From positions 496,001 through 560,000 of the forward strand of contig JAHQIY010000024.1 in NCBI GenBank assembly GCA_019054805.1: 64,000 nt of DNA, given 5' to 3'. Below are positions 10,699 to 52,204 of this stretch, in pieces. Numbering within the stretch: position 1 is the stretch's first letter; each line of letters begins with the position of its first letter. The DNA is from Brachionus manjavacas. Lineage: Eukaryota > Rotifera > Eurotatoria > Ploima > Brachionidae. Below the pieces are notes generated by a model. That model saw nothing but the letters and a program-made list of their open reading frames with translations, had not been told where the DNA came from and ran no database searches. A program made the translations under genes and the position numbers.

Positions 10699-13357
<2,659 letters not shown>

Positions 13358-21225: not shown

Positions 21226-21229
21226 CGAA
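21226..21229. other. Target-site duplication CGAA (left) of LTR element A
   Basis: CGAA directly precedes the 5' LTR and recurs at 28348-28351 directly after the 3' LTR. A 4-bp duplication is usual for Ty3/gypsy integrases. Confidence 0.85.
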
Positions 21230-21565
21230 TGTTGTAGTTCTCTCAATAACTACAACACCGACTCTATTCAACTTACATGTCTATAGTTTCACAGTGCAAT
21301 ACTATGATCTCATGCGCTTAGCAAGTAATAGTATTTAACACTGTGTAAAATATTAGACATGTGCGATCAGAAGAGATCTCAATTATTATTTCTCTTTATT
21401 TGTTTTCTCTTTTCTCTTTTCTTTATAATTTGTAAAGGCTAGAAGCGGCCACAGTAATTAATAAAGTTTATAAAAGATATTATACTTTCATTTAATTGTC
21501 CCTTCCCTTAGGTCTTTATCCCAATCTGATTTAAAGACAAGTTAAGCCGTACTTGAACTTTAAAA
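21230..21565 (+). repeat. 5' LTR of element A
   Basis: 336 bp, starting TGTTGTAGTTCTC and ending CTTTAAAA. Matches 28012-28347 base for base by eye. It contains AATAAA near 21463 as a likely polyadenylation signal, and two CACWGTG motifs (21290 and 21339). Confidence 0.95.
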
Positions 21566-21566
21566 G

Positions 21567-21581
21567 TGGCGTCCCTAGGTG
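21567..21581 (+). promoter_or_regulatory. Primer-binding-site candidate of element A
   Basis: TGGCGTCCCTAGGTG starts 2 bp after the LTR. TGG at this spot matches the CCA end of a tRNA primer. The implied G discriminator base would fit a tRNA-Ser, but no tRNA sequence from this genome is available here. Confidence 0.5.
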
Positions 21582-21770
21582 TAAAATTTTTCTAAAATTT
21601 TCTTTTTCACCCCACAAAATCACGTGCTTTAAGTCACACTTTAATTTACATTGAAGTTTAAAAACGTGAAAAAATTAATTACATTACAGGATTATCTTAT
21701 CGATATATCCTATTTAATCATATCTTTCCTTATCAATTTTTGTAAAGTTCTTTTTCCTTTTCTTTCAAAA

Positions 21771-22523
21771 ATGGTAAATGGTCCTATCGATAGAATCACC
21801 GTGTTGGCAATGATGTTTTTTACGTCGATTGTCCCATCGAGCGTTTTGGCGATTCTTGGCCTCAATCAACAAACATTTACTGAGCGTGTTGTTTCAATTA
21901 TACACCGTTCAGTCATGTATCTTTTGTATTATGGTTATGCCGTTGTCGCTAGCATACCAAAAGAAACAGCCTGTTTGATTGGCATTATCACAGTGCTGAT
22001 ATTAGTGTTCAAATTATTCAAAAAAGGGAGGCACTCCACGCCGAACTCCAACTCCCACAACTTTAACGTTTATAATACCATGCAACTTGATTCATCACGG
22101 AACAATTCGACCGTGCAAGATACAAGTGGAAGCAACATGGTAAACAAATCAATCAAGGTTCCAGACATGTTCAGAGAAGGCATGGACCTTAACTCATGGT
22201 TGATACAACTAGAAATTTTTCTAAGATGTTTTGACAAGTCTGAATGGGTCGATATTGCAATTAGCTATATCGAGAGCAAAGTTCTTAGAAGAGTTCGTAA
22301 TTTAAACGATCTCATTCAAAAAAAAGTTTCATTTGATGAATTCAAATCGATTTTAGTCGAAGCTTTCACAGTGAAACAAAAAGAATCGGAGATGAATTTT
22401 GAGATGTTGACACATTGTAGACAATCGCCTAAAGAATCAATTGTATCATTTGGAGAGTCAGTTAGTCGAATAGTCAAAAAATCTTTCCAAATGTTAGTGA
22501 CTCGGAAGACATTGATAGGGTAA
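21771..22523 (+). CDS. Element A gag, N-terminal part with membrane segments (frame broken)
   Basis: The first ATG of this open frame is at 21771; the frame extends upstream without an ATG. It encodes about 250 residues. The N-terminus has two strongly hydrophobic stretches (about residues 9-30 and 52-83, the latter containing CLIGIITVLILVFKLF followed by KKGRH), which look like membrane anchors and are unusual in Ty3/gypsy Gag. A Ser/Asn-rich linker and a retrotransposon Gag-like helical domain follow (MFREGMDLNSWLIQLEIFLR). The frame ends at TAA 22521-22523, which overlaps the next ATG as TAATG. The Gag domain continues in the -1 frame, so the stop is a break inside gag at the A6 run 22476-22481, not the natural end. 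Confidence 0.75.
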   Translation: MVNGPIDRITVLAMMFFTSIVPSSVLAILGLNQQTFTERVVSIIHRSVMYLLYYGYAVVASIPKETACLIGIITVLILVFKLFKKGRHSTPNSNSHNFNVYNTMQLDSSRNNSTVQDTSGSNMVNKSIKVPDMFREGMDLNSWLIQLEIFLRCFDKSEWVDIAISYIESKVLRRVRNLNDLIQKKVSFDEFKSILVEAFTVKQKESEMNFEMLTHCRQSPKESIVSFGESVSRIVKKSFQMLVTRKTLIG

Positions 22524-24310
22524 TGCAAGAAAGATTCGCAGCTGGTCTTTTGAATCAAAGATTACGTGAAACCGTTCGTTCAAAGATGTTAAAAATGAGA
22601 AAAATTAAGAAGGACGAGTCATTCAAATTACACGATTTGATCGATTATGCCGAATGCAAAAATTCGAGCTATGAAACATCGAGTCAAAGTGATGGTCATT
22701 TTGTATCGAGTGAGAGTGACAATTTTGCTCAACCGAAGAAACTTCAGTTTCAAACACAAACGAACCAGAATTACAAACCGAATATGGGTTACAACAAAAA
22801 CTACGTTAAACCATCCAACAATGGTTTTCAACAAAACAATTTGAATACAAGTGTTCAACCAACTCCAAAGCAATCGCAACTACAGACACAACAACAAGAA
22901 AAAATTATGTCGGTTAAACGAGTGTTCGGAAGAATTTCTGAGCCAAATAAACCAATCGGAGGTCAAGCCTTATTTAATAATACACTCGTCAACTATATGT
23001 GCGATAGTGGCGCGGATTTGTCAATAATCGACGAAAAAACCTTTTTGTTGATAAAACGCCACGATCCAGACACTGTGTTAGAAAGAAGCGAGAACAAATT
23101 GACTTCTGTGAGTGGTGAAATCAAAGTTTTGGGAACATTGAGATTAAAACGATGTTTAATTGTACCAGAATTGGATTTGAGGAACACAAAGATATTGGTT
23201 ACGGAAAATGTCTCTGGTTATCAGTGTTTACTTGGTCGAGACATTATCAAGCGTATTCCAGCCCTAAAACAAAAGTTTGATGGAATCCACACGATACTAA
23301 AAGAATATTCTTCGGTCGTCATGAAGATATTCAAGAGTGAAATGGAAGAACGCAAATTTAGAGCCAATATTCGAAGAGCGAGTAACAAACTAAATATTCA
23401 CAGTGAAAAATCTGATGAATCGATAGAATTGTTGAATGTTAAACAAAACCAAACTGAAGATAAATCCTCAATTAATGTGGTTTCGTCCAATGTCGAAGTG
23501 GTACCGACAGTTTCACAGTGTACTGATGAAATCCAAATTAAAAATGCTTCAGCAGTCCAAGATGAAAAAGTGGTCGAAAAGAAGGTATCATTTATAAACG
23601 ACGATCCGATTCATATTAATTCAATTGAAATGGTGAATGAAGTTGAGATGGAATTTGAACAAGCCAAACAAGCTATCGAATCTGAATTTAAAAAAATTTC
23701 CGCTCATTCCGTTACCGATTTGAAGCCTGAAGTAAATTACGACTGTGCGTTCAAAATCGATTTTAAAGAGGCTAATCAACGACCGATCCGATGTAAAAGT
23801 CGTCCTCTACCATACAATCTAAAAGAAAAAGTTCGACTCGAGATTGATAAGCTCCTCAAAGCGGGAATCATCCGAGAGAGCAAGAGCGAATGGTGTTCAC
23901 CGATAAGAGTAGTCGACAAACCAGATGGTTCGATAAGGCTCACAGTAGACTACAAAGAGCTCAACAAGGTCATAAAAGATGACAATTATCCAATTCCTTC
24001 GATCAGTGACATGTATAATAAGATCAATGAATCCGATACATTTACAAAAGCCGATTTGAAGTCAGCATTCCATCAAATTCCAGTTCACAAAGACTCAATC
24101 GAATTCACATCTTTTATTTGTGAATATGGAGTGTTTGAATATGTTTCAATGCCAATGGGTATCAAAACAGCTCCAGCGTGTTTTCAACGTTTTATTGAGA
24201 AGACACTTAAAAAATTTATTGATAATGGAACACTTGGTGTTTTTTCGATGATACTATTATTCATTCGAATTCAAAAAAGAACGGTCTCAAATTTCACGTG
24301 GACACAGTGA
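22484..24310 (+). CDS. Element A gag C-terminus, protease and N-terminal reverse transcriptase
   Basis: Open frame to 24310 with an ATG at 22523; the Gag-like reading is already open in this frame from about 22484. Order: Gag end (RFAAGLLNQRLRETV), a Gln/Asn-rich stretch without any CCHC zinc knuckle, retroviral-type aspartic protease with active-site CDSGADLSIID near 23000 and the flap-side LLGRDII near 23230, an acidic linker, then RT with EWCSPIRVVDKPDGSIRLTV, TKADLKSAFHQIPV (first catalytic Asp) and YVSMPMGIKTAPACFQRF. The reading breaks at the T6 run 24240-24245 just before the catalytic DD. Gag and Pol appear to be one continuous frame in the parent element. Confidence 0.85.
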   Translation, partial: FPNVSDSEDIDRVMQERFAAGLLNQRLRETVRSKMLKMRKIKKDESFKLHDLIDYAECKNSSYETSSQSDGHFVSSESDNFAQPKKLQFQTQTNQNYKPNMGYNKNYVKPSNNGFQQNNLNTSVQPTPKQSQLQTQQQEKIMSVKRVFGRISEPNKPIGGQALFNNTLVNYMCDSGADLSIIDEKTFLLIKRHDPDTVLERSENKLTSVSGEIKVLGTLRLKRCLIVPELDLRNTKILVTENVSGYQCLLGRDIIKRIPALKQKFDGIHTILKEYSSVVMKIFKSEMEERKFRANIRRASNKLNIHSEKSDESIELLNVKQNQTEDKSSINVVSSNVEVVPTVSQCTDEIQIKNASAVQDEKVVEKKVSFINDDPIHINSIEMVNEVEMEFEQAKQAIESEFKKISAHSVTDLKPEVNYDCAFKIDFKEANQRPIRCKSRPLPYNLKEKVRLEIDKLLKAGIIRESKSEWCSPIRVVDKPDGSIRLTVDYKELNKVIKDDNYPIPSISDMYNKINESDTFTKADLKSAFHQIPVHKDSIEFTSFICEYGVFEYVSMPMGIKTAPACFQRFIEKTLKKFIDNGTLGVFSMILLFIRIQKRTVSNFTWTQ

Positions 24311-27033
24311 TGGATGTGTTGAATACTTTAGAAAACCGAAGACTAAAAATATCGTACGAAAAGAGTGTCACACTCTCGAACGAAATTAAATTATTAGGTC
24401 ACATGATTTCGGATCATCAAATTAAACCAGATCCAGACCGATCACAGTGTGTTGAACAAAGACCAAAACCGATCACAGTGAACGATTTACAATCATGGTT
24501 AGGCGCTTCAAATCAGTACAGGAAGTTTATTCCAATGTACGCAGAATTAGCGAAACCTCTTTACGATCTATTGTGTTTAAAAGACGTACCAAAAAATCTT
24601 CGTAAAAAGAATGGTGCAGTCAACGGTAAAAAAGTTTTACTAAATTGGAACCCTGAAGCTGAAGAGAGTTTTGTAAAACTAAAAGAAACGTTGTGTAGTG
24701 ACTTAGTTCTTGCTTTGCCAGATTTTAGTAAACCATTCATTCTTAGTACGGATGCTAGTGAAGATGGTTATGGAGCGGTATTGGAACAATTTATCGATGG
24801 GCAATTAAGACCAATCGCGTACTTTTCGAAAAACTACACACCAACTCAAAAGAAGTATAGTACATCCGAAAAAGAAATGTTGGCTTTGGTAATGGGAATA
24901 GAATACTTCCATCAATGTTTATATGGGATTTTATTCACTGTGAAAACGGATCATCTTCCGTTGACATGGCTCCCCAACAAGAAAAATATACAATCTCGTC
25001 TAGAACGATGGTTCCTTAGACTGTGTATTTATAATTTCGTTATTGAATACAAGCCGGGTAGAGAAAATGTCGTTCCAGATTGGTTGTCAAGACCACCAAC
25101 TGATCAAATCGATGAGAATGATTATTTGGATAACGTAGTCGCTGTTGTAAGTCAAATGTTTGACGAAGAAGAAACACAGGATGATGAAGATGAAATTGAA
25201 TCGAGCGCTTCAGACCAAGACGAAAACGCCATCACAATTGCCAACAATCCAAGTTCAGTCAATATAAACGAATTCCAAAGTTTAAACGAAGAACAGTTAA
25301 AAGACAAAGAAATTCAGTGGATCAAGAATTTAATTCAAACCCACGGTGAAACCAAACCAAAACTTTCGATATTCGAAAATGTAACTCGTCGAATACTCTT
25401 CAAACAATACGACAATTTAATGATCGTTGAAGGTATTTTATATAGAAATAGTGAAGATCGTAATGGATACAAAATCACTCAATTTGTTTTGCCAAAACAA
25501 ATCACTGTGATGATAATTAAACAAGTTCATTCATCGATTTACAATGGTCATTTGGGTAAGTCAAAGACAACTCACAAAATCATCGAGCGTTTTTATAGTC
25601 CGTTCTTAAAAGATGAAATTAAAAATTTCATTAAACATTGCGATGTTTGTCAAAAAACCAAGATCACACAACCAAAACGTCTCGCTGAATTGATGTACCT
25701 CACTCCAACAAATCCAAATGAGCTTATCACAACTGATCTTTCAGGTCCGTTTAAACTCACAATTCGAGGAAACAAACATATTCAGGTGATTGTCGATCAC
25801 TTTTCCAAGTTTGTCGCATTCTTTGCTCTCAAGAACATAAAAGCACCACCTGTTGCGAATAATGCAGTTAACGGTTGGTGTTGCAAATATGGTATTCCTG
25901 GAGCAATTCTGTCGGACGGAGGGAAGCAATATCAATCAAAGTTGTTGGAATTAGTGTATGATCATTTGGATATTAGAAAGTTAAAAACAACGCCATTTCA
26001 TCCTCAATGCGATGGTCAAAGTGAAAGAACAATCAGGACTCTAAAATCGATGATTAGAGCGTATGTTGATGCCGATCAAACTGATTGGGATTTAAATTTA
26101 GAAAAATTAGCATTTGCATATAACACTGCTGTTCACAGTGTTACGAAACAGACTCCTTTCGAAATGATGTTCGGCCGAAGACCAAGACTGCCAATCGACT
26201 TAGTAATTCCAACTCTCGACCAAGTGGATCGTACCCCTATTCTACAAGAATATCAGGTAATAAACGATTTAGGTGTAGTCACAGTGTTGGAAGACATAGA
26301 ACAAAAAATTGAACAAAATGTGCCAATTGTAGCTCACAATTATCTGAATGATTTAAAAACAAAGCTTGAGATTTGTTATGAAGCTGTAAGAACGAACCGA
26401 AATTGTCGAATGGACAAGGCGAAATTGGAGCACGACAGAAAAATTCGTAAATTTGAATACAAAGTAGGTGATTACGTTCTAACCGATCATCCAAAATTAA
26501 AAAAAGGACATTCTCATGGGTTAGCACACAAGTATTATGGACCGTTTGTTATTGTCGGTATCAACGAAAATAAAATTGATTATTTTATTCGCTTAGCTTC
26601 GAGTCCAAGGGCAAAAATTAAACAAATACACAAGAATCGTCTGAAATTTTATTTTCACACTGGTCCATCATTGGAAACGATTAAAGAAGAACATGAAGAT
26701 GAGCATGTTCAATCACACAAAAGAAAGTACAGAAAAGACCCCAATAATCCGCGTTGGACAAAATCCAGTACGAATCCTCGAATCACAGTGAATAGCTCTG
26801 ATGCTGAATCATGTAGCTCAACTGAATCAAGTTCCGCTAGTCTAACTGAGAACGAAGAGATACAAACAAATTCCAAGAGACTAAGCAATCACAGTGATTC
26901 TAGTTCAAATGGGTCTCAAATAAAAAGTACTAAAAAAAGAAAAGTCTTAAAAAAAAACCGCATCCTGAAATCTAACAGTGAACTAAGAAGGTCGACTCGT
27001 CAATCAAAGCCACCTGACCGACTAGTATTTTAA
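24246..27033 (+). CDS. Element A pol: RT end, RNase H, integrase
   Basis: The frame is open from the RT catalytic box (FFDDTIIHS, Tyr of YxDD replaced by Phe as read across the break) to 27033. Domains: RT thumb and connection (IKLLGHMISDHQIKP), RNase H (LSTDASEDGYGAVL, TSEKEMLALVMGIEYF, KTDHLPLTWL), integrase HHCC zinc finger (QVHSSIYNGHLG with HCDVCQKTK), the DDE core (TTDLSGPFK; AILSDGGKQYQSK; DGQSERTIRTLKS), then a basic Ser-rich tail ending QSKPPDRLVF. No chromodomain is seen. All catalytic residues outside the break are intact. Confidence 0.9.
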
Positions 27034-27040
27034 ACTTGTT

Positions 27041-27045
<5 letters not shown>

Positions 27046-27071
<26 letters not shown>

Positions 27072-27227
27072 TTTTTGAGGAGAGGAAACTCAGAAGAACC
27101 TCGTGGTAAGGAGGATATTTCCAGAAGAACCTTATTTAAAGTTTTAATTATCAGACAAAATGGTTGTCGATAATAACAAAGTTTAAAAATTTTAATTTAA
27201 ACATAAATTATAAAATTTTAAAATTCG

Positions 27228-27275
<48 letters not shown>

Positions 27276-27312
27276 TAATTTTAAAAATAAAAAAAAAAAA
27301 AAAAAAAAAAAA
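27046..27312 (+). other. Three long poly(A) tracts between pol and the extra ORF of element A
   Basis: A-tracts of about 26 nt (27046-27071), 39 nt (27233-27271) and 24 nt (27289-27312). The last runs almost into the ATG of the extra ORF, with an A at -3. They may be relics of retro-copied mRNA joints or an A-rich leader aiding internal initiation. Confidence 0.7.
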
Positions 27313-27323
27313 GAAAAACAAAA

Positions 27324-27923
27324 ATGGATAAAATTTTCGACATTTATATCCGGAACATTACAGTTCTTGGAGGGGACCGGAGAAAGACAGCGGAAACCTT
27401 GGAGGTTTTCATAAACAAGGAAGTCATCCGGCAGGGTTTGGACAACAGACTGGGACTCATCGATAATTTGAAAGTCCCAGAGATGTGCAGGGACCACGAC
27501 GGGACAACGTACATCGCGTTCTGTCGGATGGAGAGACCTGACCGACATGGTGAGGCTGTCGAAGTCATGAACAAGATGACATTCGAAGGCCGGAAGCTCC
27601 TGGCTAAGATGAACGATATAGAGTCAGGGGCTGCACAGTGGTCGAAGAAGACAGTTGTGGACCAAGATGGTAGGCCGATCTGGTACCATGCCGAGAAAGC
27701 TAAATACCTCGAGAGGACCAACCACACAATGGAAACGCAAGAACGCCTTATTGTCCACGTTGAGCGCCGATTCCGAGAGGAGCAGGAAGGCAGAAGGAAT
27801 GCCGAAGCTCGCCTAAGACAAGCAGAGGATGAGCTCAACAATGCTAAGGAGACCATCCGTCAACTGGAGGACACTGTGAAGAGCCTACAGGAAGTGTTAG
27901 AAGTCTATGAGCCATCCGGATAG
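27324..27923 (+). CDS. Element A accessory protein, RRM-like fold plus C-terminal coiled coil (199 aa)
   Basis: Complete ATG-to-TAG frame between pol and the 3' LTR, where env or accessory genes lie. Residues 1 to about 95 can be read as an RRM: a first strand IFDIYIRNIT (RNP2-like), a middle helix, then TTYIAFCRMERPDRHGEAVE (RNP1-like strand and helix 2) and FEGRKLLAKM. Residues about 130-195 are a clear coiled coil (RRFREEQEGRRNAEARLRQA, EDTVKSLQEVLEV). No signal peptide or membrane segment, so not an envelope. The codons are much richer in G and C than gag-pol, hinting at separate origin or selection. It contains two CACWGTG motifs (27634, 27872). The RRM call rests on pattern only; an antisense open frame over the same span is a shadow. 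Confidence 0.7.
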   Translation: MDKIFDIYIRNITVLGGDRRKTAETLEVFINKEVIRQGLDNRLGLIDNLKVPEMCRDHDGTTYIAFCRMERPDRHGEAVEVMNKMTFEGRKLLAKMNDIESGAAQWSKKTVVDQDGRPIWYHAEKAKYLERTNHTMETQERLIVHVERRFREEQEGRRNAEARLRQAEDELNNAKETIRQLEDTVKSLQEVLEVYEPSG

Positions 27924-27999
27924 AATTCTGTTTGTTATTTTTATTTTTAAAATTTTTTTGCTGTTATGTGTTTTTTGTTTTTGTTTATCTTTCTTCTTC

Positions 28000-28010
28000 T
28001 AGGGGAAGGT
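28000..28010 (+). promoter_or_regulatory. Polypurine tract of element A
   Basis: TAGGGGAAGGT ends one base before the 3' LTR (which begins TGTTGTAG after an A at 28011). A purine tract here primes plus-strand DNA synthesis in LTR elements. Confidence 0.7.
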
Positions 28011-28011
28011 A

Positions 28012-28347
28012 TGTTGTAGTTCTCTCAATAACTACAACACCGACTCTATTCAACTTACATGTCTATAGTTTCACAGTGCAATACTATGATCTCATGCGCT
28101 TAGCAAGTAATAGTATTTAACACTGTGTAAAATATTAGACATGTGCGATCAGAAGAGATCTCAATTATTATTTCTCTTTATTTGTTTTCTCTTTTCTCTT
28201 TTCTTTATAATTTGTAAAGGCTAGAAGCGGCCACAGTAATTAATAAAGTTTATAAAAGATATTATACTTTCATTTAATTGTCCCTTCCCTTAGGTCTTTA
28301 TCCCAATCTGATTTAAAGACAAGTTAAGCCGTACTTGAACTTTAAAA
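28012..28347 (+). repeat. 3' LTR of element A
   Basis: 336 bp, identical by eye to the 5' LTR; followed by CGAA at 28348-28351, the second copy of the target-site duplication. Confidence 0.95.
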
Positions 28348-28351
28348 CGAA

Positions 28352-32640: not shown

Positions 32641-35600
32641 ATGTATTTGTATAACTTGACTTTACAAAAGGCTACTGCAATACAACTTGCAATTCATGGA
32701 AATTTTTCTGGCACAAAACAACAAGAAATAGTAATTTCTCGTGGAAAAATTATTGAAGTTCTTCGCCATGATCCAAATACAGGAAAAGTATATACTCTTT
32801 TATCAGAAGAGGTTTTTGCGATTGTCCGTTGTCTACTTCCAATAAGATTAACTGGAGGAACAAAAGATTATATAATAATAGGCTCTGATTCGGGTCGTGT
32901 TGTTATTTTGGAGTATAATTCACAAAAAAATATCCTAGAAAAAGTAACTTATTATTAAGTGTAATATAAATCAAGTACTTTCTAAAATTTATATCTGCAG
33001 GTGCATCAGGAGACTATGGGAAAAACGGGCTGTCGACGCATAGTTCCTGGACAATATTTAGCCACTGATCCAAAAGGAAGAGCATTCATGATAGGTGCTG
33101 TGGAAAAACAAAAATTAGTGTACATTTTGAATAGGGATTCTCAAGCCCGTTTGACAATCTCATCGCCACTAGAAGCCCACAAATCAAATACGATTTGCTT
33201 CAATATTGTTGGCATAGATGTAGGTTTTGAAAATCCAATGTTTGGTTGTTTAGAAGTTGACTATGAAGAGGCTGATCAAGATCATACGGGCAATGCATAT
33301 TGTCAAACGAAACAATTATTGACATTTTATGAGCTTGATCTTGGTCTCAATCATGTTGTTAGAAAATTCTCAGAACCGCTTGATCAGTATGCCAATATGC
33401 TTATATCTGTGCCTGGTGGATCTGAAGGACCAAGTGGTGTTCTTGTTTGCTGTGAAAATTGTATAATTTATAAAAACTTTGGAGATCAATTAGACATTAA
33501 ATGTCCGATACCAAAAAGAAGGGTATTTATTTGGATTTTTTTCTTTTTTTTTTGTTTTTTTTGTTTAATTGTTTAAAATGAACTTAAGAATGATTTGGAT
33601 AACGTTAATCGAGGCATGATTTTTGTTAGTAGTGCAACACACAAAACAAAATCAATGTTTTTTTTTCTGGTACAATCCGAACAAGGTGACTTGTTCAAAA
33701 TTACATTAAAGACAGATGACGGCTTTGTGACTGAGATTCGAATAAAATATTTTGACACTGTTCCAGTGGCTACTGCAATGTGTGTCCTAAAGACTGGATT
33801 CTTGTTTGTGGCGAGTGAATTTGGAAACCAGTAAGTAAAATTATGATTAAGTCAAACTGATCCATTGATAAAAATTGTTTTAAAGTTATCTTTATCAAAT
33901 TGCTCATCTTGGTGATGATGATGAAGAGCCTGAATTCAGTTCAGCGATGCCTCTCGAAGAAGATGAGACGTTTTTTTTTGAAGCAAGAGCATTGAAAAAT
34001 TTAGTTTTAGTGGATGAATTGGATAGCTTGTCTCCCATTATAACATGTCAAATAGCCGATTTGGCAAACGAAGATACGCCGCAACTTTATGTTGCTTGTG
34101 GACGCGGACCACGATCAACATTAAGAGTTCTTAGACATGGCTTAGAAGTGTCAGAAATGGCTGTCAGCGAACTTCCAGGAAATCCAAATGCTGTGTGGAC
34201 AGTAAAAAAGAGAGCTGACGACGAATTCGACTCTTATATAATTGTCTCATTCTTAAACGCCACTCTAGTCTTGAGTATCGGCGAAACTGTTGAGGAAGTA
34301 ACTGACTCGGGATTTTTAGGAACAATGCCAACTATTTCTTGTTCACAATTGGGAGAAAACGCATTGATTCAAATTTATCTAGAAGGCATTAGGCATATTC
34401 GTGCAGACAAACGAGTTAATGAATGGAGAGCGCCTGCCAAAAAACAAATAGTTAAATGTGCCATTAATCAGCGCCAAGTGGTAATTGCTTTGACTGGTGG
34501 CGAATTAGTTTACTTCGAAATGGACATTACTGGCCAATTGAATGAATACACTGAAAGAAAAGACATGGGTACGGATGTTGTGTGCATGGCATTAGCTTCG
34601 GTTCCTAACGGAGAATTAAGAACAAGATTTTTAGCCGTTGGATTAAATGATGATACTGTTAGAATAATATCTCTAGATCCTAAGGATTGTCTAATGCCAT
34701 TAGCATCTCAAGGCTTGCCATCTCCTGCTGAGAGCCTTTGTATTGTGGAAATGAAAGGTCTTGATTACGAAAATTATGGTAATGTATCACTGGAACAACA
34801 CCAGCAATCAACACTTTTCCTAAATATCGGCCTTCAGAATGGTGCTCTATTGAGAACAGTGCTTGACTCAACTACAGGCGAACTCTTAGATACTAGAACT
34901 CGTTATTTAGGCTCTAGACAAGTTAAATTATTTAAAATAAATATTCAAGGCGCTGAGGCCGTATTGGCTCTATCTAGTCGAAGTTGGCTTAGCTATATGT
35001 ATCAAGGACGCTTTCATTTAACACCATTGTCCTATGAAACTTTGGAATATGCAAGTGGCTTTGCTAGTGAACAATGTCCTGAAGGCATCGTTGCAATTTC
35101 AGCAAATACGTTACGAATTTTGGCATTGGAAAAATTAGGTGCAGTTTTCAACCAAGAAATAAAGCAATTGAAATATACTCCTAGAAAATTTGCTGTCAAT
35201 TACGAAAATGGAATCATTTTTTCAATCGAAACAGACCATTTAAGCTACACAGACAAAACTAGACAAGAAAAAAAAGAACAAATGGCTCAACAAATGATTC
35301 AAGATGCTGATACCGACGAAAAAAGACTAGCTATTGAGATGGCAAATGCATTTATTTTGACTAAATTGCCTGAACAAACCTTTGGTGCACCAAAAGCAGC
35401 CACAGGTATGTGGGCCTCCGCTATTAGAATTTCAGACATAATAAGCAAAGATACCAAGGGTTTAATTGAATTAGAACAAAACGAAGCAGCTTTCAGTATA
35501 GCAATAGTTAAATTCTCTGCACGACCAACCAATCATACTTATCTTCTAATAGGCGTAGCACAAGACTTAAAATTGAATCCCAAATCTTGCACATGTGGAT

Positions 35601-36533
35601 ATATTTACACTTATCTATTGATTGACAATGGACAAAGATTAGAATTAGTTCATAAAACGCTAGTAGAAGATGTGCCTGGAGCGATTTGCGCTTTTCAAGG
35701 AAGAGTTCTTATTGGAGTTGGTCGATACTTGCGAATCTATGAAATCGGAAAGAGTAAATTGCTAAGAAAATGTGAAACCAAACAATTGTCAAATTTTGTT
35801 TGTCAAATTCAAACCATTGGACCAAGAATATATGTTTGCGATTCACAAGAGAGCTGTTTTTTTGTCAGACATAAACCTGACGAAAATCAATTTATCATTT
35901 TTGCTGACGATACTCTTCCCAGATTTGTGACCTCAATGGCTCTTCTCGATTTTAACACGGTGTCTATTGGCGATAAATTTGGAAACTTGTCAATTGTAAA
36001 AAAGTTGATTTGATCAAAAAACTTTTCTATAATTTCTCTTTAAGATTCGTTTACCTCCAGGAACTACTGACGAAGTAATGGTTGATCCGACTGGAGATAA
36101 GGGTCTTTGGGACAGAGGTCTTTTGAACGGCGCACCGCAAAAAGCAGATACGTTGTGTTCTTTTTTTATAGGTGAAACAATCACAAGTCTTCAAAAAACA
36201 AGCTTGATACCAGGAGGCAATGATGCATTGGTGTATACCACATTATCTGGATCTATTGGAATTTTAGTACCATTCAATTCAAACGAAGATAGAGATTTTT
36301 TTCAGCATTTAGAGATGCATATGCGAACCGAATGTCCAACTCTTTGTGGAAGAGATCACACTTCGTTTAGATCTTTTTATTATCCTGTTAAAAGTATTAT
36401 AGATGGAGATTTATGTGAGAAATTTTCAAATCTTGATATTGCCAAACAAAAAACAATTGCTGAAGAACTTGACCGTACTCCGAATGAAGTATCAAAAAGA
36501 CTAGAAGACATCCGCACTCGTTTTGCATTTTAG
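32641..36533 (+). CDS. SF3B3: SF3B3 (SAP130), splicing factor 3B subunit 3, 5 exons
   Basis: SF3B3 is a scaffold of the SF3b complex of the U2 snRNP, holding SF3B1, PHF5A and SF3B5 during branch-site recognition. Exons with GT..AG junctions: 32641-32943, 33001-33522, 33589-33830, 33886-35995, 36045-36533; introns 49-66 nt. The joined frame is 3666 nt, 1221 aa, against 1217 in human. Identity is high throughout: start [100 protein letters not shown], then the CPSF_A-type C-terminal propeller ending [20 protein letters not shown]. The fold is three WD40-like beta-propellers plus a helical C-terminus. Complete and apparently functional. AATAAA follows the stop within about 15 nt. Confidence 0.98.
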
Positions 36534-41924: not shown

Positions 41925-43315
41925 ACTTTAATAAAAGAAGTGAAATTGGTTCTCATTAAAAAATATAAAGAAATGAGAAAAACTTTGGCTGGTTAAAGTA
42001 ACTAAAAAACAGGCATATGAGAAATTAAAAGAAACAATTTCAAAACGTGTAGCTTTTTAAAATATAAGATTAACAAAAATCAGGTATTTAAGCGAAACAT
42101 GAATAAACAATTGCAAAATCAGCAAATGAGAAGTGAAACGTTTTTCCATTTATAAATCAAAGCCTTGACAAGGGCTTTACTTGGTTCAAGTAACTTTAAA
42201 TCAGGCTTTTGGGTAAAACATGGAGTAAGATCAGCGAAACTTGCACGAGGGAACTGTAGATGGTTATCATTTATAATTAAAAGGCCTGATAAAACTATGG
42301 TAAATTGATGAACTTAAAATCAGGTGTTCAAGCAAAACATGAATAAACAATTGCATTTTCAGCAAAAGAGAAGTAAAATCGGTTTTAATTTATAATTTAA
42401 AGCCTTGATGAAGAATTTCGGTCAGATAACTTTAAATCAGGATTTTGGATGAAACATGGAGAAAGAACAGCAAAACTTGCAGGTGAGAATTGAAATTGGT
42501 TTTCTATTTAAAATTCAAAGTCTTGACAATGATTTTAATTGGTTCATTAACCTTTAAATCAGGCTTGTGAGTAAAACATGGATAAAGAATAGCTTAACTT
42601 CATAGAGAGAACTAAAAATCCTACCATTTAAAATTCAAAGGCCTGATAAAAACTATGTTTTTTTCATGAACTAAAAATCAGGTGTTTGAGCGATATATGA
42701 GTGAGCAATTGCAAAATTAGCATTAGAGAATTAAAATTTGCTTTTCAATTAATATTCAAAGCCTCGAAAAGGACTTTGATTGGTTTGAGTAACTTAAAAT
42801 CAGGCTTATGAGTAAAAATGGAGAAAGAACAGCAACACTTTAAAGTGAGAACTGAAATCGATTTCCCATTTATAATTCAAAGCCTTGACGAAGACTTTAG
42901 TTGGTTCAAAATTTTTAAATCAGACTATTGAGTAAAACTTGGAGTTAAAACAGCAAAACTTGCGCCAGAGAACTGAAAATATTACCATTAAAATTGAAAC
43001 GGACTGATAAAAATAATGGTTTGTTCAAGAACCCAAAATCCGGTGTTCGATCGAAACATGAAGTAGCAATTGCAAAATTACCATTATTGATTCAAAGCCT
43101 TTCAAATATTTTTGTTGGTTCGAATAACTTAAAATCAGGCTTATAAGGAGAACATGGAGAAAAAACAGCAAAACTTGATAGAGAGAACTGAAAATGGTAC
43201 CATTTATAATTAAAAGGATTGATAAAAAATTTTGGTTTGTTAAAACTTAAATCATGTTCGAGCTTAAATGAAGAACCAATTGCAAAATTGGCATGAGAGG
43301 AGCAATATCGAGGTA
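41925..43315. repeat. Degenerate tandem repeat, ~120-bp units, about 11 copies
   Basis: Units recur at roughly 42.07, 42.20, 42.32, 42.43, 42.55, 42.67, 42.80, 42.92, 43.03, 43.14 and 43.25 kb. Each has AAATCAGG..., (A)AAACATG(G)A and CAATTGCAAAAT or AACAGCAAAACTTG. Two types tend to alternate: one with 'ATGAATAAACAATTGC' and one with 'ATGGAGAAAGAACAGC'. Copies are 70-85 percent alike by eye, with many indels. Confidence 0.85.
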
Positions 43316-45377: not shown

Positions 45378-45619
45378 TGTTAAATGCAAAAGTTTAGTTA
45401 CTTTTAGTTTATTTCTTTTTGTTTATAAGTTTGTTTGTTTTAGCCATGAGGATTATTTTTTTTAGTTTTTGAACTTAGTTATGTTTTTGATTTAAATAAA
45501 GTTATTATTATAATTTCAAATTTGTTTAATTATTTATTAACACAACACCATCCACTACAGACGTCCATCCATCAAGGACAAAGTTAAATTAAAGTTAACA
45601 AAAAAATAAGAATTTAACA
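45378..45619 (+). repeat. 5' LTR of element B
   Basis: 242 bp with 8-bp inverted ends TGTTAAAT/ATTTAACA. Contains AATAAAG near 45496 and one GACGTC (45560). AACC precedes it. Confidence 0.9.
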
Positions 45620-45620
45620 T

Positions 45621-45636
45621 TGGTGCCCAATTATTG
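45621..45636 (+). promoter_or_regulatory. Primer-binding-site candidate of element B
   Basis: TGGTGCCCAATTATTG starts 2 bp after the LTR. TGGTGCCC is a plausible tRNA 3'-end complement. The site differs from that of element A, so the families likely use different primers. Confidence 0.5.
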
Positions 45637-46000
45637 AACAAGCTTTAGACAAGTTGTTCGGACGAACTCACGCGTATTAATAGGATTTTTTTTTCGATCA
45701 CGGTCAGTAGGAAGACTGGAGTGATTGAAGGTTGTTTATAGGATTATTAATGGTCTGTATTGAGTCAGCGGTTGATGTCAATAAGCCCATTGGGATTTTT
45801 TTTTTGGGTTTTCATAATTCGATTATTACACGTGTTTGGTTGTGATTTGTACTGTGTCAAAGACGGCGTCAGCAAAATCACGTTGTTTGTTTTTTTTTTC
45901 AAGTCAACTTTTGGGTAAATTCATTTAATTAAATATATATCCCAATTAATCAATACATCCGACATATCAATCGTCAAATTTTTAAGACCACAACATTCAG

Positions 46001-47431
46001 GATGGATTATTTCAAAATATTTAAATTAGTTTTAGGATTAATTAATGAACCAGACGTCTTATCCCGAATACCAAAAACTAAAGCCCCCACCAATCAAACC
46101 ACGTGGTACAGATACATGGAGACAACACTCAGGAAGTTTGGTCGAACAACCAATCAATATTTATAATCGCTTCCTCATTCATTTTCTTAATAACGATGAT
46201 GATTTCAAATTTTCGACAGCAAAGAGCCTTAGAAAAACAAATACACGAGTCTATCAATCTTATTAAGCAAATTAGTAGCAACAACACGCCACAGTTTATA
46301 TGTTCAAACGTCAACGCAAACGAAACCTCAACAACAAACCGACCAACGAGTAATGCATGTGCAAAACTTCAAGCTACACCGACGACGACAACACCAACAA
46401 CGACCACATCAAGACCAAACACTCAGTTAACATCAATGACGACAGACGATGTCGACTACCCGTACGTGGACACATCTTTACGAATGAACAGCACACCAAA
46501 CACATATTCAGAGACAAGAAATCAATCCGATGCGATGAACCCATCTGCACCAAATGCATCAATAAGCAGTGAAGATTCAACTTTTCAAGCACAAAATAGA
46601 CGTGTTAGATTTGCAGACGAAAGACACCCGGAGTATGAAACAAACGTTACAATGTTTCCTTTTATATTTATCAAACCACCCGAAAAGTTCGATGCAAGAA
46701 GAACGGACGTCAGAACATGGATCAAAGAATTCGATTTATTCATCCAAGGCCACAACATCACCAACAACAAGATGAAAGTAGTGCTATCCTACTTAGACAA
46801 CGAAACACGACAAATCGTTGAAAATACACATTTTAGCTATGGCGACAACATTGCGTATCAAGAATTCAAGAATTTAATGATTCAGCTCTATTGCAGGAAA
46901 CAGAAATCAGAAACGGAGATGAAAAGAAAATTTTACGAACGCGTACAGCAATCATATGAAAATGCATACCTGTTTGGAACACAATTGCGTGTTTTGTCAA
47001 CACAATCACATCCGGAATTGTTGCCATTCCAATGTGAAAACGTCATCAAAGAACAATTCATCAAGGGTTTGAAAGATAGATCTTTAAGGACCAAGTTACA
47101 AATAGACAAGGATAGCAAGTCACTTAATGAAATTGTAGACGATGCAATGAGATACGAGAGAGCATACGCAGACGTCAACAATTTACCATCACACTCTTAT
47201 AACGAAAGAGAATATAACCCGCACAAAATCGACAAAGTGACGTCGATAAACACAAGACAAAACCAAAATCAATCATACCAGAGCAACCAACATTATCAAT
47301 CAAACAGCCAAAACTACAAACAACAAAATCAAAATAGACAACAAAGCCAGCTGTATAACAATGAAGAAATCAAATGTTACAACTGTAACAAGATAGGACA
47401 CTACAAACGCGATTGCCCAAGGACGCATTGA
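46001..47431 (+). pseudogene. Element B gag with hydrophobic segment and CCHC knuckle
   Basis: An ATG at 46001 opens a frame of about 55 codons (MDYFKIFKLVLGLINEPDVL) that ends by a stop near 46166. The main frame is open from 46103 to 47431 without an ATG at its start, so a frameshift lies between. Early in this frame is a hydrophobic run (IFIIASSFIFLITMMI) followed by basic NFRQQRALEKQ, recalling the membrane segments of element A gag. A Thr/Asn-rich linker, the Gag core (FIFIKPPEKFDARRTDVRTW, FIKGLKDRSLRTKLQID) and a C-terminal zinc knuckle CYNCNKIGHYKRDC follow. Confidence 0.8.
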
Positions 47432-48484
47432 AAAATATTAATCCACAGCCCACAGAGATGCATGGAATAGGTAAATTGAATGATATGTACGTTTTATTTC
47501 TAGTAGATACGGGTGAAAAACATTCTTGCAAGCAATAGAGTATGTGACGCGCTGGAATTGACACCAAACAAGATTTCAATGGAAGTATGCAACCCATTGG
47601 GAGAGGAGATGAAGACGTACGGGCGAGTGACGGTGAAATTCGAAGTGAATGGGAACGAAGTAGTGTTTGAGGCGCTCGTGATTCATAATTTATACAACGA
47701 AGTGATCCTAGGTTTAGATACACTAAAGAGATTTGAGACGTCTAGAGACGCATTGAATATTTTGAAAAATTGGACGTCGAGATCATACGATAGCAAGCAT
47801 ATGGAAGAGTTTTTGTCCGAAGGAACATTTGGTACACAATTGAAAAATTGTGAGGAAATGATGTTGAAGATTCCAAATGACTCACTTGGCCAAGCGAAGA
47901 TGATTTTAAGTTCAATTGACTCATCCAAGATCAACGACGAGTTAATTCGCCAAGACATCTATAGTGTGAATAACATTAACACCGGACAAACAGAAATAAA
48001 TGAAGAGACACTCGACGTATATAGATACCAAATCAACAGACAAATCGAAGAATTGTCGGCAAAAAGTTATAAAGATCTTACACCAACATCAAGAGCAACA
48101 CATAAGATCGAATTGTACGACAAAACTCCATTCAATGTTAAAACAAGGCCAATACCATTTTCCAAGAAAAAGGATTTTAAGAACATCATAGACGAGATGC
48201 TGGACTCAAAACTGATTCGACCTAGCAAGTCACCATATTCGTCACCAATACATTTAGTGAAAAAGGCCGATGGAGGCATACGTCTGACAATTGACTATCG
48301 GAAGTTAAACAAGTTGACGGTGAGGGATGCATACCCGTTACCAAGAATTGACGTCCTGCTGTTTAGTTTGAAAAGAGCCAAAATATTCTCAAAGTTTGAT
48401 TTACACTCAGGTTATTTTCAAAATCGTCGTCGAGGAAGAATGCAAGAAATACACCGCTTTTACCTGCGAGTTTGGCCATTTTGA
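47432..48484 (+). pseudogene. Element B protease and N-terminal reverse transcriptase (frameshifted)
   Basis: Directly after gag, in frame at about 47485-47510, is the protease active site LFLVDTGEKHS. A frame change near 47512 leads to the open stretch ending at 48484 with VILGLDTLKRF (protease flap side), RT fingers (HKIELYDKTPFNVKTRPIPF, SSPIHLVKKADGGIRLTIDY) and SKFDLHSGYF with the first catalytic Asp. A second frameshift near 48415 breaks RT. Confidence 0.85.
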
Positions 48485-49497
48485 GTTCAACGTCATGCCC
48501 ATGGGACAAACCAACTCAGGAGCAACATTCCAACGTTTCATGGACGAAATTTTTAAAAAGCTGATTGGTGTATGTTGCTGGGTGTATCTTGACGATATTA
48601 TAGTCTTCTCTGAAACCGTCGAAGATCATCTCAATCACTTGAACAAAATTTTCGAAATTTTATGAGAACATGGACAAAAAATCAAGCGTCAAAAATGCAA
48701 ATTTTTCCAAACTTCAATCACGTTTTTAGGCCGCATAGTAGAGAATGGTACGATCAAACCATCAGATGAAAAAATTGAAGCAGGAACAAAACACAAAAAG
48801 CCAGAAGACGTCGATCAAACCCTAGCTTTTGTTGGAATAACATCATACTATAGGAAATTTGTAAAAGATTTTGCTAGAATAGCATATCCGCTTCATGAAC
48901 TGTGCAAAAAAGATGTAAAGTTTGCATGGAACGACCAATGCCAAAACGCATTTGACACATTAAAAAACAAACTAGTCAATGAGCCTATTCTAACGCGTCC
49001 AGATTTTTCAAAGCGATTCTATTTAGAGGTAGACGCATGTAACATAGGCATAGGCGCAGTGCTATCTCAAAAAGATGAAAGGGGACGTCTCAAACCAATA
49101 GCTTACTACTCACGAAAACTCAGTAAAGTCGAACAAAAATATTCGACGTCGGAAAAAGAGATGCTAGCCATAGTAAATGCAATGGAGCACTTTAAAGAGT
49201 TTCTGTTCGGTGTGGTAGTTACAGTGGTTACAGATCACCAACCACTTAAATGGATCCTCACTGTAAAAAATCCAGCACCTAGATTGGCCCAATGTATAAT
49301 AAGGCTTGAAATGTTTGATTTCGACATTGAGTATCGACCTGGATCCAAAAACGGAAACGCCGACGGTCTATCTAGATGGCCAATAGACAAATACACCGAG
49401 ACGTCAATGGAAGAAGAAGAGTACATAATTAATAATTTAATGACTGAAAAGGACACTTTGAACGAATTGGAAATAATTCTGGAAGAAGAGGAGTGAA
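48405..49497 (+). pseudogene. Element B reverse transcriptase core and RNase H (stops)
   Basis: Continues RT after the frameshift: KYTAFTCEFGHFEFNVMPMG, catalytic WVYLDDIIVFS, then a TGA at 48663 shortly after NKIFEIL. The frame reopens with RT connection (FLGRIVENGTIKPSDEKIEA) and RNase H (LEVDACNIGIGAVLSQKDER, TSEKEMLAIVNAMEHF, VTDHQPLKWIL), ending in an acidic stretch at a TGA (49495-49497). YxDD and the RNase H acidic residues are intact. Confidence 0.88.
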
Positions 49498-51194
49498 GTG
49501 ATATCGAAGAAGAGTCAACGACTATAAATGTTTTGCTGTTTAAAGAAATAGACGGTAAGTGTAAACAAGCTGCGGACGAGAACATCGAATGGGCAAAGAA
49601 ACTTGTTAAAGGAGAAATAGATTATAAGAAAGTCAACGAGTCGACGTTAAACGACGAACAAGGTGCATACATGAAAGAAAAAGATAATTTAAAAATTGAT
49701 AATGACACCTTATGTCAAGTTTCAAATGAAAAAGAAAACAAGGTTATACAGTACGTAGTCCCAAAAACAGAAAGAACAAAAGTGATCGAGTCCCAACACA
49801 CGTCGATTACAAGTGGACACTTAAAGTTTGACAAAACCTTAAAAAGAATAAGAAATAGATTTTACTGGCCAAAGTATCATACAGATGTTAAAAAGTTCAT
49901 TCAAGAATGCCTAATGTGCCAAAGGACGTCTAATCCTCTACGAAACATCAAAGTGCCACGCAAACCAAAACTGTCAAACAAGCCATTGGAAATACTCACT
50001 ACCGATATTTTAGGCCCTCTTAAGGTTAGTAAAAATGGTTGTAAATACATACTCGTTATTATTGACCATTTTACAAAATGGCTTGAACTTTATGGTATGA
50101 AAAACATAGACGCCAAATCAACGGCCGGATGCCTTTTAGATTTTATTTGTAGATACGGGATACCGGAAGCCATTCTGTCAGACCAGGCAAAGAATTATCA
50201 ATCCAAGTTACTTGAAGAGCTTTGGGAACTTTTGGATATGAGACGTCTTCGAACAACACCATTTAACCCTAAATGTGATGGATTAAGTGAGAGAGTAAAC
50301 CGAGTGATGAAGAGAATGATAACGTGCTACGTAAATAAAACACACGATGACTGGGATGAGTTGTTGCCTTTACTCAAACTAGCGTATAACTCAGCGGTAC
50401 ATTCAACCACAAAATATACACCATACGAATTGATGTTCGGCCACAAGCCAAAAATGCCCATTGACCTCATTTACCAGACGCCGCAAATTAATTCAAAATT
50501 GGACACAGCCGGATATGCAGATAAAATAAAGAAGACCCTAAAGATAGCCCATGAAAGAGTACGGATTTACCGCGACATAAAAATGTTGAAAGCCAAGTTA
50601 ATATACGACAGACAAGTTATGGCAGCACCTCTCAAAAGGGGTGACGCGGTCTGGCTTAAAAATGACGAAACCAAGAAGGGTCAATGTAAGAAGTTTATTT
50701 ACAAATGGAAAGGCCCATATCTCGTCACCGAAAAGGTTAATGACGTCAATTATATTATTAAGCCGCTGTACAAGAAAGGACGCGGAATCACAGTAAACAG
50801 ATCAAGGTTAAAAAGACATTTCTATAAACTAGATGAGGGACATGAGTTGACCGAACCAACAGTCCAAAAGATCCCTAAAATTAAAGCCAATCCAAGAACA
50901 GTATACGCCAGAAAGTTGATAAAAAGGGCCAAAAAGGATAAAAGAGGAAGAGAAAAAAGGATTGGAGAGATACTACCAGGAACAAGCGTGGACGTCGAAA
51001 CGAACCGACCAAAACCAATCCAACTGGTCATGGCAACTACTTTAAATCCGGATCAAACTAAACCACCAGAAGACAACATCGATGACCTGAGTGACCCAAC
51101 CTTCAAAAAAAAAATTAATACAGATAAATATGTCCCAGATAGGCCGCGACGTCAACGTAAGCCTGCGGACAGGTACGATCCGTCTCATAAATGA
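49498..51194 (+). CDS. Element B integrase region
   Basis: The frame continues after the TGA; the first in-frame ATG is at 49530. HHCC zinc finger (SQHTSITSGHLKFDKTLKRI, CLMCQRTS), DDE core (TTDILGPLK; AILSDQAKNYQSKLL; DGLSERVNRVMKR), C-terminal SH3-like part (LKRGDAVWLKNDETKKGQCK, YKWKGPYLVTEK), a basic tail ending RQRKPADRYDPSHK at 51194. This 553-codon stretch is undamaged. Its pol tail matches the end wording of the other two gypsy elements. Confidence 0.9.
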
Positions 51195-51404
51195 ATGAAG
51201 AAAAGTTAAACAATTGTAAATATGGTTTCGAGTAACAGTTTTAATTTTAATTTATTATACAACTATAAAAGACAAGTTTAATGAATCATCTAATTTATAT
51301 ACATAAGTGATCATCGTATAACTTAGTTTTCATATTAATCAAAAATAAAAGAAAAGTGTGACCAAATTATCATCCGATGTTTCCCACGACACTTCGACAG
51401 CTTT

Positions 51405-51920
51405 ATGTTGAACTGCTTTGTTGATGAGTTGAGAGGTCAAGTGGGCCCGGTCAGATATTTCAGGGTGATCGAGGACCATTTTAACAAGCGTCTGGACACG
51501 GTGGGGTTTTTGGGCTTTTACAATTCTCGGGACAACATCAGGTGTCTAACCTCTCGGTACCCGAGGATCGTGAACCCACAAGACCCAACACACTTCTTAC
51601 AATTCCGGAATAATAAGGAAAGGAAGGAGTGCGATTTTGACGAATTCCCACACACAGAGGTGAAGATAGTCAAATGGCTCCGTGACGGCCGAGAGGTCGT
51701 TAGAACGTGGACCCATAGGGACGAAAATTATGAACGTTATGAGTACACGAGTGAAGTAAGCACAGAACCCCAGAAAAAAAAAGAGTCGGAGTCAACACAA
51801 AAACAAGTGCTGCAACCAAGCGAGACGTCGAGTACAACCAAAATTAAGTGGGTCGTTTTTAACGAGACTGGCACTGACACTGAGGACAACGGTCTGGACG
51901 TCGAAGAGCAGAAGTATTGA
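51405..51920 (+). CDS. Element B accessory ORF after pol (171 aa, unknown)
   Basis: ATG-initiated frame between pol and the 3' LTR. The first ~105 residues look globular (VDELRGQVGPVRYFRVIEDH, FLGFYNSRDNIRCL, EVKIVKWLRDGREVVRTWTH); the rest is a charged, Gln/Ser/Thr-rich tail (SESTQKQVLQPSETSSTTK). No membrane segment or signal peptide, so not an envelope. It is richer in GC than pol. It contains two GACGTC sites (51824, 51897). No similarity to the element A accessory protein was seen. A shorter frame from an ATG at 51377 hits a stop at once, so an upstream frameshift is possible and the true N-terminus uncertain. Confidence 0.65.
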   Translation: MLNCFVDELRGQVGPVRYFRVIEDHFNKRLDTVGFLGFYNSRDNIRCLTSRYPRIVNPQDPTHFLQFRNNKERKECDFDEFPHTEVKIVKWLRDGREVVRTWTHRDENYERYEYTSEVSTEPQKKKESESTQKQVLQPSETSSTTKIKWVVFNETGTDTEDNGLDVEEQKY

Positions 51921-51944
51921 GACCGAGCCTCGGAGTTGCTCTCA

Positions 51945-51961
51945 AAAAAGGATGAGAGCAT
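51945..51961 (+). promoter_or_regulatory. Polypurine tract of element B
   Basis: AAAAAAGGATGAGAGCAT immediately precedes the 3' LTR. Confidence 0.6.
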
Positions 51962-52204
51962 TGTTAAATGCAAAAGTTTAGTTACTTTTAGTTTATTTCA
52001 TTTTGTTTATACGTTTGTTTGTTTAAGCCATGAGGATTATTTTTTTTTTAGTTTTTGAGTTTAGTTATGTTTTTGATTTAAATAAAGTTATTATTATAAT
52101 TTCAGTTTTGTTTAATTATTTATTAACACAACACCATCCACTACAGACGTCCATCCATCAAGGACAAAGTTAAATTAAAGTTGATTAAAAATAAGAATTT
52201 ATCA
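51962..52204 (+). repeat. 3' LTR of element B
   Basis: About 243 bp. Its last bases read ATTTATCA instead of ATTTAACA. It has one GACGTC (52146) and is followed by AACC (52205-52208). Confidence 0.9.

Follow-up and report, generated by a model that had tools for sequence, protein, structure and literature searches.

Family-specific sequence words in LTR retrotransposons of the rotifer Brachionus manjavacas and a candidate RNA recognition motif reader

How a retroelement selects its own RNA among close relatives is a long-standing question, and the answer may lie in the sequence. Long terminal repeat (LTR) retrotransposons of bdelloid rotifers reportedly carry a third open reading frame (ORF3) of the env-like, esterase or DEDDy exonuclease type. 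The main text of PMC5408684 contains no occurrence of RRM, 'RNA recognition' or Brachionus. In Arabidopsis, the VANC proteins of VANDAL elements, which are DNA transposons, are described in PMC5735166 as a sequence-specific anti-silencing system. Here we describe an LTR retrotransposon, element A, that is studded with a short DNA word and lies in a 64,000-nucleotide stretch of the rotifer Brachionus manjavacas (contig JAHQIY010000024.1, positions 496,001 to 560,000; hereafter the window). Related elements of the same genome mostly carry words of their own, and each of them bears an ORF3 that is a candidate for the reader of its word.

Words of element A and its relatives

Element A is a Ty3/gypsy LTR retrotransposon (Metaviridae). 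It has a target-site duplication and a pair of LTRs, seen as a 337-bp identical direct repeat that consists of the 336-bp LTR and one flank base. Protease, reverse transcriptase (RT), RNase H and integrase follow in the order of Ty3/gypsy elements, the protease match being weak (E 9.7e-4, under its curated cut-off). The features of element A are:

21226-21229 and 28348-28351: 4-bp target-site duplication CGAA, read from the flanks
21230..21565, plus strand: 5' LTR, 336 bp, TG start
21651..22523, plus strand: gag open reading frame, 290 aa
22523..24310, plus strand: first part of pol with aspartic protease (weak) and start of RT; Pfam RVT_1 1.9e-19, gag-asp_proteas 9.7e-4
24298..27033, plus strand: second part of pol with RNase H and zinc-binding and core domains of integrase; Pfam RT_RNaseH_2, Integrase_H2C2, rve
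27046..27312, plus strand: A-rich spacer that separates pol from ORF3; A-runs of 26, 39 and 24
27324..27923, plus strand: ORF3, 199 aa, with an RNA recognition motif (RRM) at about 1-105 and a long coiled coil at 122-195 in the model; proposed reader of the word
28012..28347, plus strand: 3' LTR, identical to the 5' LTR

An earlier note, made from the letters of the sequence alone, had listed 20 sites of CACAGTG or its complement CACTGTG (together CACWGTG) and had seen none in the other 57 kb. All 20 were recovered at the exact coordinates (14 CACAGTG and 6 CACTGTG) and the remainder of the window holds 0. The two sites of the LTR enter this count once per LTR copy and so make up four of the 20. 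The sites, with the words that other families have at the homologous places, are:

21290..21296, plus strand: CACAGTG, 5' LTR
21339..21345, minus strand: CACTGTG, 5' LTR
21989..21995, plus strand: CACAGTG, gag
22367..22373, plus strand: CACAGTG, gag
23071..23077, minus strand: CACTGTG, pol
23399..23405, plus strand: CACAGTG, pol
23514..23520, plus strand: CACAGTG, pol
24303..24309, plus strand: CACAGTG, pol
24443..24449, plus strand: CACAGTG, pol
24474..24480, plus strand: CACAGTG, pol; on homologous codons D, C6, C3b and B have their own family words
24936..24942, minus strand: CACTGTG, pol; TCACGGTGA at the homologous place in family D
25503..25509, minus strand: CACTGTG, pol
26134..26140, plus strand: CACAGTG, pol; same word at the homologous place in family D
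26280..26286, plus strand: CACAGTG, pol; on homologous codons TTACTGTG (C6), GTTACCGTG (C11) and AGTAGTAG (C8)
26784..26790, plus strand: CACAGTG, pol
26890..26896, plus strand: CACAGTG, pol; TCACAGTGA at the homologous place in family D
27634..27640, plus strand: CACAGTG, ORF3
27872..27878, minus strand: CACTGTG, ORF3
28072..28078, plus strand: CACAGTG, 3' LTR
28121..28127, minus strand: CACTGTG, 3' LTR

Genome-wide, CACWGTG occurs 4478 times in 114.17 Mb (3913 times for the reversed control pattern). This is 0.28 per 7.1 kb, so that element A with its 20 sites is enriched about 70-fold. T mostly precedes the motif (14 of 20 sites), as had been noted, and the motif occurs in all three codon phases (9, 3 and 3 of the 15 sites in the coding segments tested). 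The internal sites of element A all lie within the gag, pol or ORF3 frames (16 of 16), and their spacing is irregular, from 31 to 789 bases. Codon-preserving shuffles of the tested coding segments gave a mean of 1.86 sites and a maximum of 7 in 2000 rounds, against 15 observed. The best 8-mer of element A, TCACAGTG, reached a log10 p of -18.7; the strongest 8-mer among 100 Markov sequences reached -6.1. The enrichment is shared by same-family copies: of two that were compared, one retains 15 of the 16 internal sites and the other all 16.

The elements related to A were collected by genome searches, in which the ORF3 query gave 47 matching stretches and the pol query 75. The sample comprised 66 partly overlapping loci with a total of about 298 kb. 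One element per family was compared, namely A and B from the window, D (L061), a chimera (L065), C6 (L064), C11 (L039), C8 (L037), C28 (L054), C7 (L055), C3b (L059) and C54 (L050). Words were searched in the parts of gag, pol and ORF3 that the loci contained, and in A, D and B also in the LTR. CACWGTG is absent from all nine loci of the sample whose pol is 55-59% identical to that of A, and family D (pol about 60%) is studded with it. A k-mer scan found that most sister families without CACWGTG carry a word of their own. A significant private word of about 6-9 nt, present in roughly 9 to 20 copies and exceeding what codon choice gives, was found in nine of the 11 elements. The counts of the words in their own elements are:

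A: TCACWGTG, 12 sense and 9 antisense
D: TCACNGTG, 12 sense and 15 antisense
C6: TTACNGTG, 15 sense and 0 antisense
C11: GTTACNGT, 11 sense and 0 antisense
C8: AGWAGYAG, 12 sense and 0 antisense
C28: AGCNGCTA, 9 sense and 6 antisense
C7: AACMACTA, 15 sense and 2 antisense
C3b: AACAATTA, 15 sense and 0 antisense
chimera: AYAGTGRA, 10 sense and 0 antisense
B: GACGTCNA, 13 sense and 6 antisense (0 of 60 Markov sequences as good)

A table of the 11 elements against ten words is nearly diagonal. Off the diagonal the counts are 0-2 per strand except for words that overlap (those of A and D, those of C6 and C11, and AYAGTGRA with 5-7 in A, D and C6) and the chimera, which bears the ORF3 of A and has TCACNGTG three times on each strand. 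Two window stretches of host sequence (35 kb) contain 0-4 of each word per strand.

Since the sequences that were counted had also served to choose the words, a further comparison set the best 8-mer of every element against the best of 100 Markov sequences. It lay clearly beyond all 100 in eight of the 11 elements (A, D, C6, C11, C28, C7, C3b and B). In C8 it exceeded them by a hair (-6.8 vs -6.7) and was a different word, and in the chimera and C54 it fell within them. With degenerate words (60 Markov sequences, five elements) C8, B and C28 were beyond all, one Markov sequence was as good for the chimera and two for C54. Synonymous shuffles, 1000 for each family, were exceeded in all rounds in nine of the ten families other than C54; only the chimera ties the maximum. 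Motif fits by expectation maximization reached the upper limit of 25 sites in all 11 elements, the antisense fits often being of similar quality, and are not used as evidence.

We considered whether codon usage, base composition, tandem repeats or recurring peptides could have produced the words as an artefact. The word of C8 stands mostly in one codon phase (9 of 11), and in five host stretches of the window the same scan gave strong words in three. These were traced to tandem or periodic arrays (a 13-bp array at 2008-2091, a stretch with a period of about 120 bp at 42077-43132 and a 101-bp satellite from 52.3 kb on), and the three stretches were excluded from the comparison with the null. 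The other two, of 7 kb each (9-16 kb and 30-37 kb), fell within the Markov null. The synonymous shuffles, the Markov sequences, the three codon phases in A and the spacing of 31-789 bases all speak against an artefact, to which we give next to no credence; for nine of the 11 elements composition or codon use finds no support as a cause.

The words, their privacy and, in four families, their strand are thus solid observations. The proposal that the motif is selected as DNA or RNA and not as a peptide is well supported by the synonymous shuffles and the word scans, and its description as a family-specific tag by the table of private words and the Markov comparison. Searches of the PMC library, which misses most subscription journals, brought up no account of such words or of an RRM-bearing ORF3 in LTR elements.

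Strand and position of the sites

The earlier note had taken the two orientations of the motif as favouring recognition of double-stranded DNA. This part of its interpretation is not well supported, in contrast to the family tag on nucleic acid. CACWGTG appears bidirectional because it is a near palindrome. In the scan of both strands the four clearly non-palindromic words of the sister families are found in sense only (C6 10:0, C11 7:0, C7 10:0 and C3b 15:0, together 42:0); exceptions are the degenerate word of C7 (15:2) and the copy L049 of the C11 group (8:2). In A (CACWGTG) and D (CACNGTG) the sense strand has a purine at the centre of 29 of 37 sites (29:8, p = 7.5e-4), or of 30 of 39 if two other centres of A are added. 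C28 has no central-base bias, and since the words of C28 and B are near or full palindromes, a strand preference is difficult to assess in them. The sense-only words and the central purine bias point to RNA and not to double-stranded DNA. Recognition on the transcript is the simplest reading; recognition of the cDNA or an orientation-dependent DNA process is possible.

A tag on double-stranded DNA would be bound on the integrated copy by an element-encoded or host protein, for example for anti-silencing as in VANC/VANDAL. The words of A, D, C28 and B are palindromic or near-palindromic, and the motifs of VANC are likewise family-specific, dense and in one orientation (PMC5735166). Those motifs lie mainly in non-coding tandem repeats (PMC5735166), whereas the internal sites of A lie in reading frames at irregular spacing. 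With the 42:0 sense bias across unrelated contexts, the central purine bias in A and D, and an ORF3 that models as an RRM, we consider a DNA tag unlikely. A protein may plausibly bind the CACWGTG word.

The words could also be read by a host factor, either an RNA-binding protein or small RNAs with matching seeds, acting for example in export, translation or germline restriction. Words of 7-9 nt suit such readers, and the element-encoded reader is itself a candidate. One shared word would be expected of a host factor, however, and related families in one genome differ in their word. For small RNAs, TCACAGTGA is the start of miR-128/miR-27 and not a target of it, and in element A the non-target form predominates in sense (centre A at 12 sites, T at 4). 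A host reader appears very unlikely to us.

The conservation of sites between copies of one family gave no support. Such copies are 98-100% identical, which leaves this comparison weak. Nine pairs, from families A, D, C6, C8 and C11, kept their sites no better than background (e.g. 10 of 12 vs 10.3 expected). Three chimera pairs kept all sites (13, 9 and 11 vs 11.8, 8.1 and 9.5 expected). Between families, DNA alignments gave identical 8-mers at 3 of 9 aligned sites for A and D (0.6 expected) and at 2 of 6 for C6 and C11 (0.5 expected); for A and C6 and for D and C6 there were 0 of 5 each. In protein alignments some sites with differing words stand on homologous codons. At one place these are TCACAGTGA (A, D), TTACAGTGA (C6), ACAATTACA (C3b) and GACGTCGAT (B), and at another TCACAGTGT (A), TTACTGTGC (C6), GTTACCGTG (C11) and AGTAGTAGT (C8). 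Among all 35 pairs of dissimilar words, sites coincided 12 times within 2 bases (3.6 expected, p 0.001), 15 times within 3 bases (5.0 expected, p <0.001) and 17 times within 5 bases (7.6 expected, p 0.004). These modest statistics are suggestive of sites that switch letters in place.

ORF3 as candidate reader

Downstream of pol, all 11 elements have an ORF3 with an RRM-like stretch recognized by eye. The two proteins that were modelled, that of A and the C7-type relative P0141, both came out as an RRM with a coiled coil, and the modelled fold is beta-alpha-beta-beta-alpha-beta with RNP-like strands. In the spacer before ORF3, sense A-runs of at least 20 occur in nine of the 11 elements, the exceptions being C6 (longest 13) and B (longest 10); the A-rich spacer is perhaps a leader for internal translation of ORF3.

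The ORF3 of C7 (L055:4453-5343) has a C-terminal RING finger in addition to RRM and coiled coil, so that this LTR element perhaps encodes a ubiquitin ligase. Eleven relatives of it were found, and those that are named come from Brachionus plicatilis. The B. plicatilis protein P0149 bears the name 'katanin p60 ATPase-containing subunit A1-like' and shares 96% identity with the ORF3 of C7 over 27% of it, so that the katanin name may be wrong.

The similarity of words was compared with that of RRM and pol, since most loci held pol and ORF3 only. Word similarity correlates with RRM similarity at rho 0.53 and with pol similarity at 0.35; within the near clade the values are 0.46 (p 0.08) for RRM and -0.32 (p 0.25) for pol, the pairs not being independent in either case. 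In the Gag proteins of A, D, C6 and the chimera a strict CCHC zinc knuckle was not found, and gag of A has no Pfam family at E 0.01. ORF3 may therefore do part of the work of the nucleocapsid.

Seven loci (L065, also L042; L066, also L041; L047, L052 and L056) are chimeras in which an A-like ORF3 (95-98% identical) is joined to another gag-pol. End-to-end alignment of L065 and L066 with A showed that the last part of pol, ORF3 and the initial 240 LTR bases are those of A (91-96% identical), whereas U5, gag and pol come from elsewhere. Such chimeras would be expected from a template switch between co-packaged RNAs. The word of A is kept in ORF3 and LTR. The chimera gag-pol has at best a weak ACAGTG-like word (AYAGTGRA, one of 60 Markov sequences as good) and no excess by exact 8-mers. 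This pattern fits a recent swap, but also Gag as the reader.

Among several readings we consider ORF3 as the reader of the words the best, at about even chances. The word would be a sense-strand RNA tag, one per LTR family. The ORF3 protein would multimerise through its coiled coil, bind the word sites on its own full-length RNA and coat or gather this RNA. Each family could thereby package (or export, or reverse-transcribe) its own genome while leaving sister genomes aside; the purpose may be packaging, export or cis-preference. As the specificity of the RRM drifts, the sites would follow, some of them at the same codons. The wider proposal is a code of self-identity, in which every LTR family has its own RNA word and RRM-coiled-coil reader, sisters are kept apart, words and readers co-evolve with sites changing in place, and recombination swaps the reader module (ORF3 plus U3-R); for this we would put the chances a little short of even.

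Alternatively, the sense-strand tag could be read by Gag (or pol) instead of ORF3, the words being dispersed packaging signals bound by Gag in assembly. The same sense-strand evidence would apply, the chimeras combine the ORF3 of A with another gag-pol that lacks the dense word of A, and a CCHC pattern is present in element B and the C7 element. The lack of a strict CCHC in A, D, C6 and the chimera and a word similarity in the near clade that does not track pol make Gag, in our judgement, a rather unlikely reader.

Several results weigh against ORF3 as the reader. The palindromic or near-palindromic words of A, D, C28 and B would fit a DNA-binding dimer better than an RRM, and element B has the CCHC pattern just mentioned. 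C54 has no significant word despite its RRM-like ORF3 stretch. The RRMs of C8 and C11 are 34% identical and their words wholly different, those of A and C6 31% with similar words. The sites are neither unusually open nor structured (opening energy equal to the shuffled-flank control for 109 sites in eight families, p 0.52). Within families they are mostly kept no better than background, and with one representative per group of similar words the p of the coincidences ranges from 0.005 to 0.13 in eight variants. The weak word in the gag-pol of seven chimera loci indicates that dense sites are not needed to spread. Finally, all 11 compared elements bear ORF3, the comparison set being one without an ORF3-free LTR family; a search for copia RT (PF07727) gave three matches.

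Element B, neighbouring sequence and known systems

Element B, the second Ty3/gypsy element of the window, carries 20 of the 22 GACGTC sites of the window, which the earlier note had overlooked:

45378..52201, plus strand: element B, with LTRs at 45378-45616 and 51962-52201 (94.6% identical)
45560, 46053, 46706, 47171, 47239, 47737, 47773, 48350, 48807, 49084, 49145, 49400, 49925, 50242, 50742, 50991, 51148, 51824, 51897, 52146: GACGTC sites
51405..51920, plus strand: ORF3, RRM-like by eye only (RNP1-like GFLGFYN), start uncertain; no RRM match in Pfam

Directly after element B, the window ends in a 101-bp satellite array (52325-64000) with some 115 or more copies. Host exons lie at 10699-11865 (LAG1/CSL DNA-binding domain, 4.9e-23) and at 33947-36013 (RSE1/DDB1/CPSF1-family protein).

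In the pol of element A a frame change lies inside RT at 24298-24310, where the copy L062 has a single open frame of 1215 codons; frame breaks at other places differ from copy to copy. The nearest named relatives of its pol and ORF3 proteins are from Brachionus calyciflorus and B. plicatilis, and IMG/VR contained no relatives of its pol.

One animal genome holds nine words, and every element with such a word also encodes a candidate reader. If ORF3 is the reader, the families would form a natural series for change in RRM specificity, and a dispersed recognition code would constrain protein-coding DNA. An explanation for private, strand-specific words would still be needed if they are read by Gag or by a host protein. 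Each pair of word and reader consists of a small protein and a short RNA, and specificity is open to direct all-against-all testing.

L1 ORF1p is not known to be paired with a word of this kind. Together with other RRM-bearing ORF1 proteins of LINEs, it resembles the rotifer ORF3 as a retroelement-encoded protein with RRM and coiled coil that is expected to bind its own RNA. ORF1 of the L1 type lies upstream of pol and has the order coiled coil, RRM and C-terminal domain (PMC4120745), whereas in the rotifer ORF3 the RRM comes first and the coiled coil last, downstream of pol. The bdelloid LTR elements share the extra gene downstream of pol (PMC5408684). With VANC/VANDAL the rotifer elements have in common short motifs that are dense, private to one family and different in its relatives, along with an element-encoded protein. 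PMC5735166 describes a motif of duplex DNA, mainly in non-coding tandem repeats, a placement that element A does not share; the rotifer words belong to LTR elements, lie in coding sequence on the sense strand and have an RRM protein as candidate reader. The dispersed packaging signals of RNA viruses likewise consist of many degenerate motif copies through the genome with a self-encoded RNA reader, if the proposed model holds (PMC6281560, in part), and many copies through the genomic RNA are found in nine of the 11 elements. Those signals are stem-loops bound by the coat protein (PMC6281560, in part), whereas the rotifer words have no structural context and a separate RRM protein as candidate reader. 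In function the words resemble both the dispersed packaging signals and the VANC tags, although one tested defining feature of each is absent.

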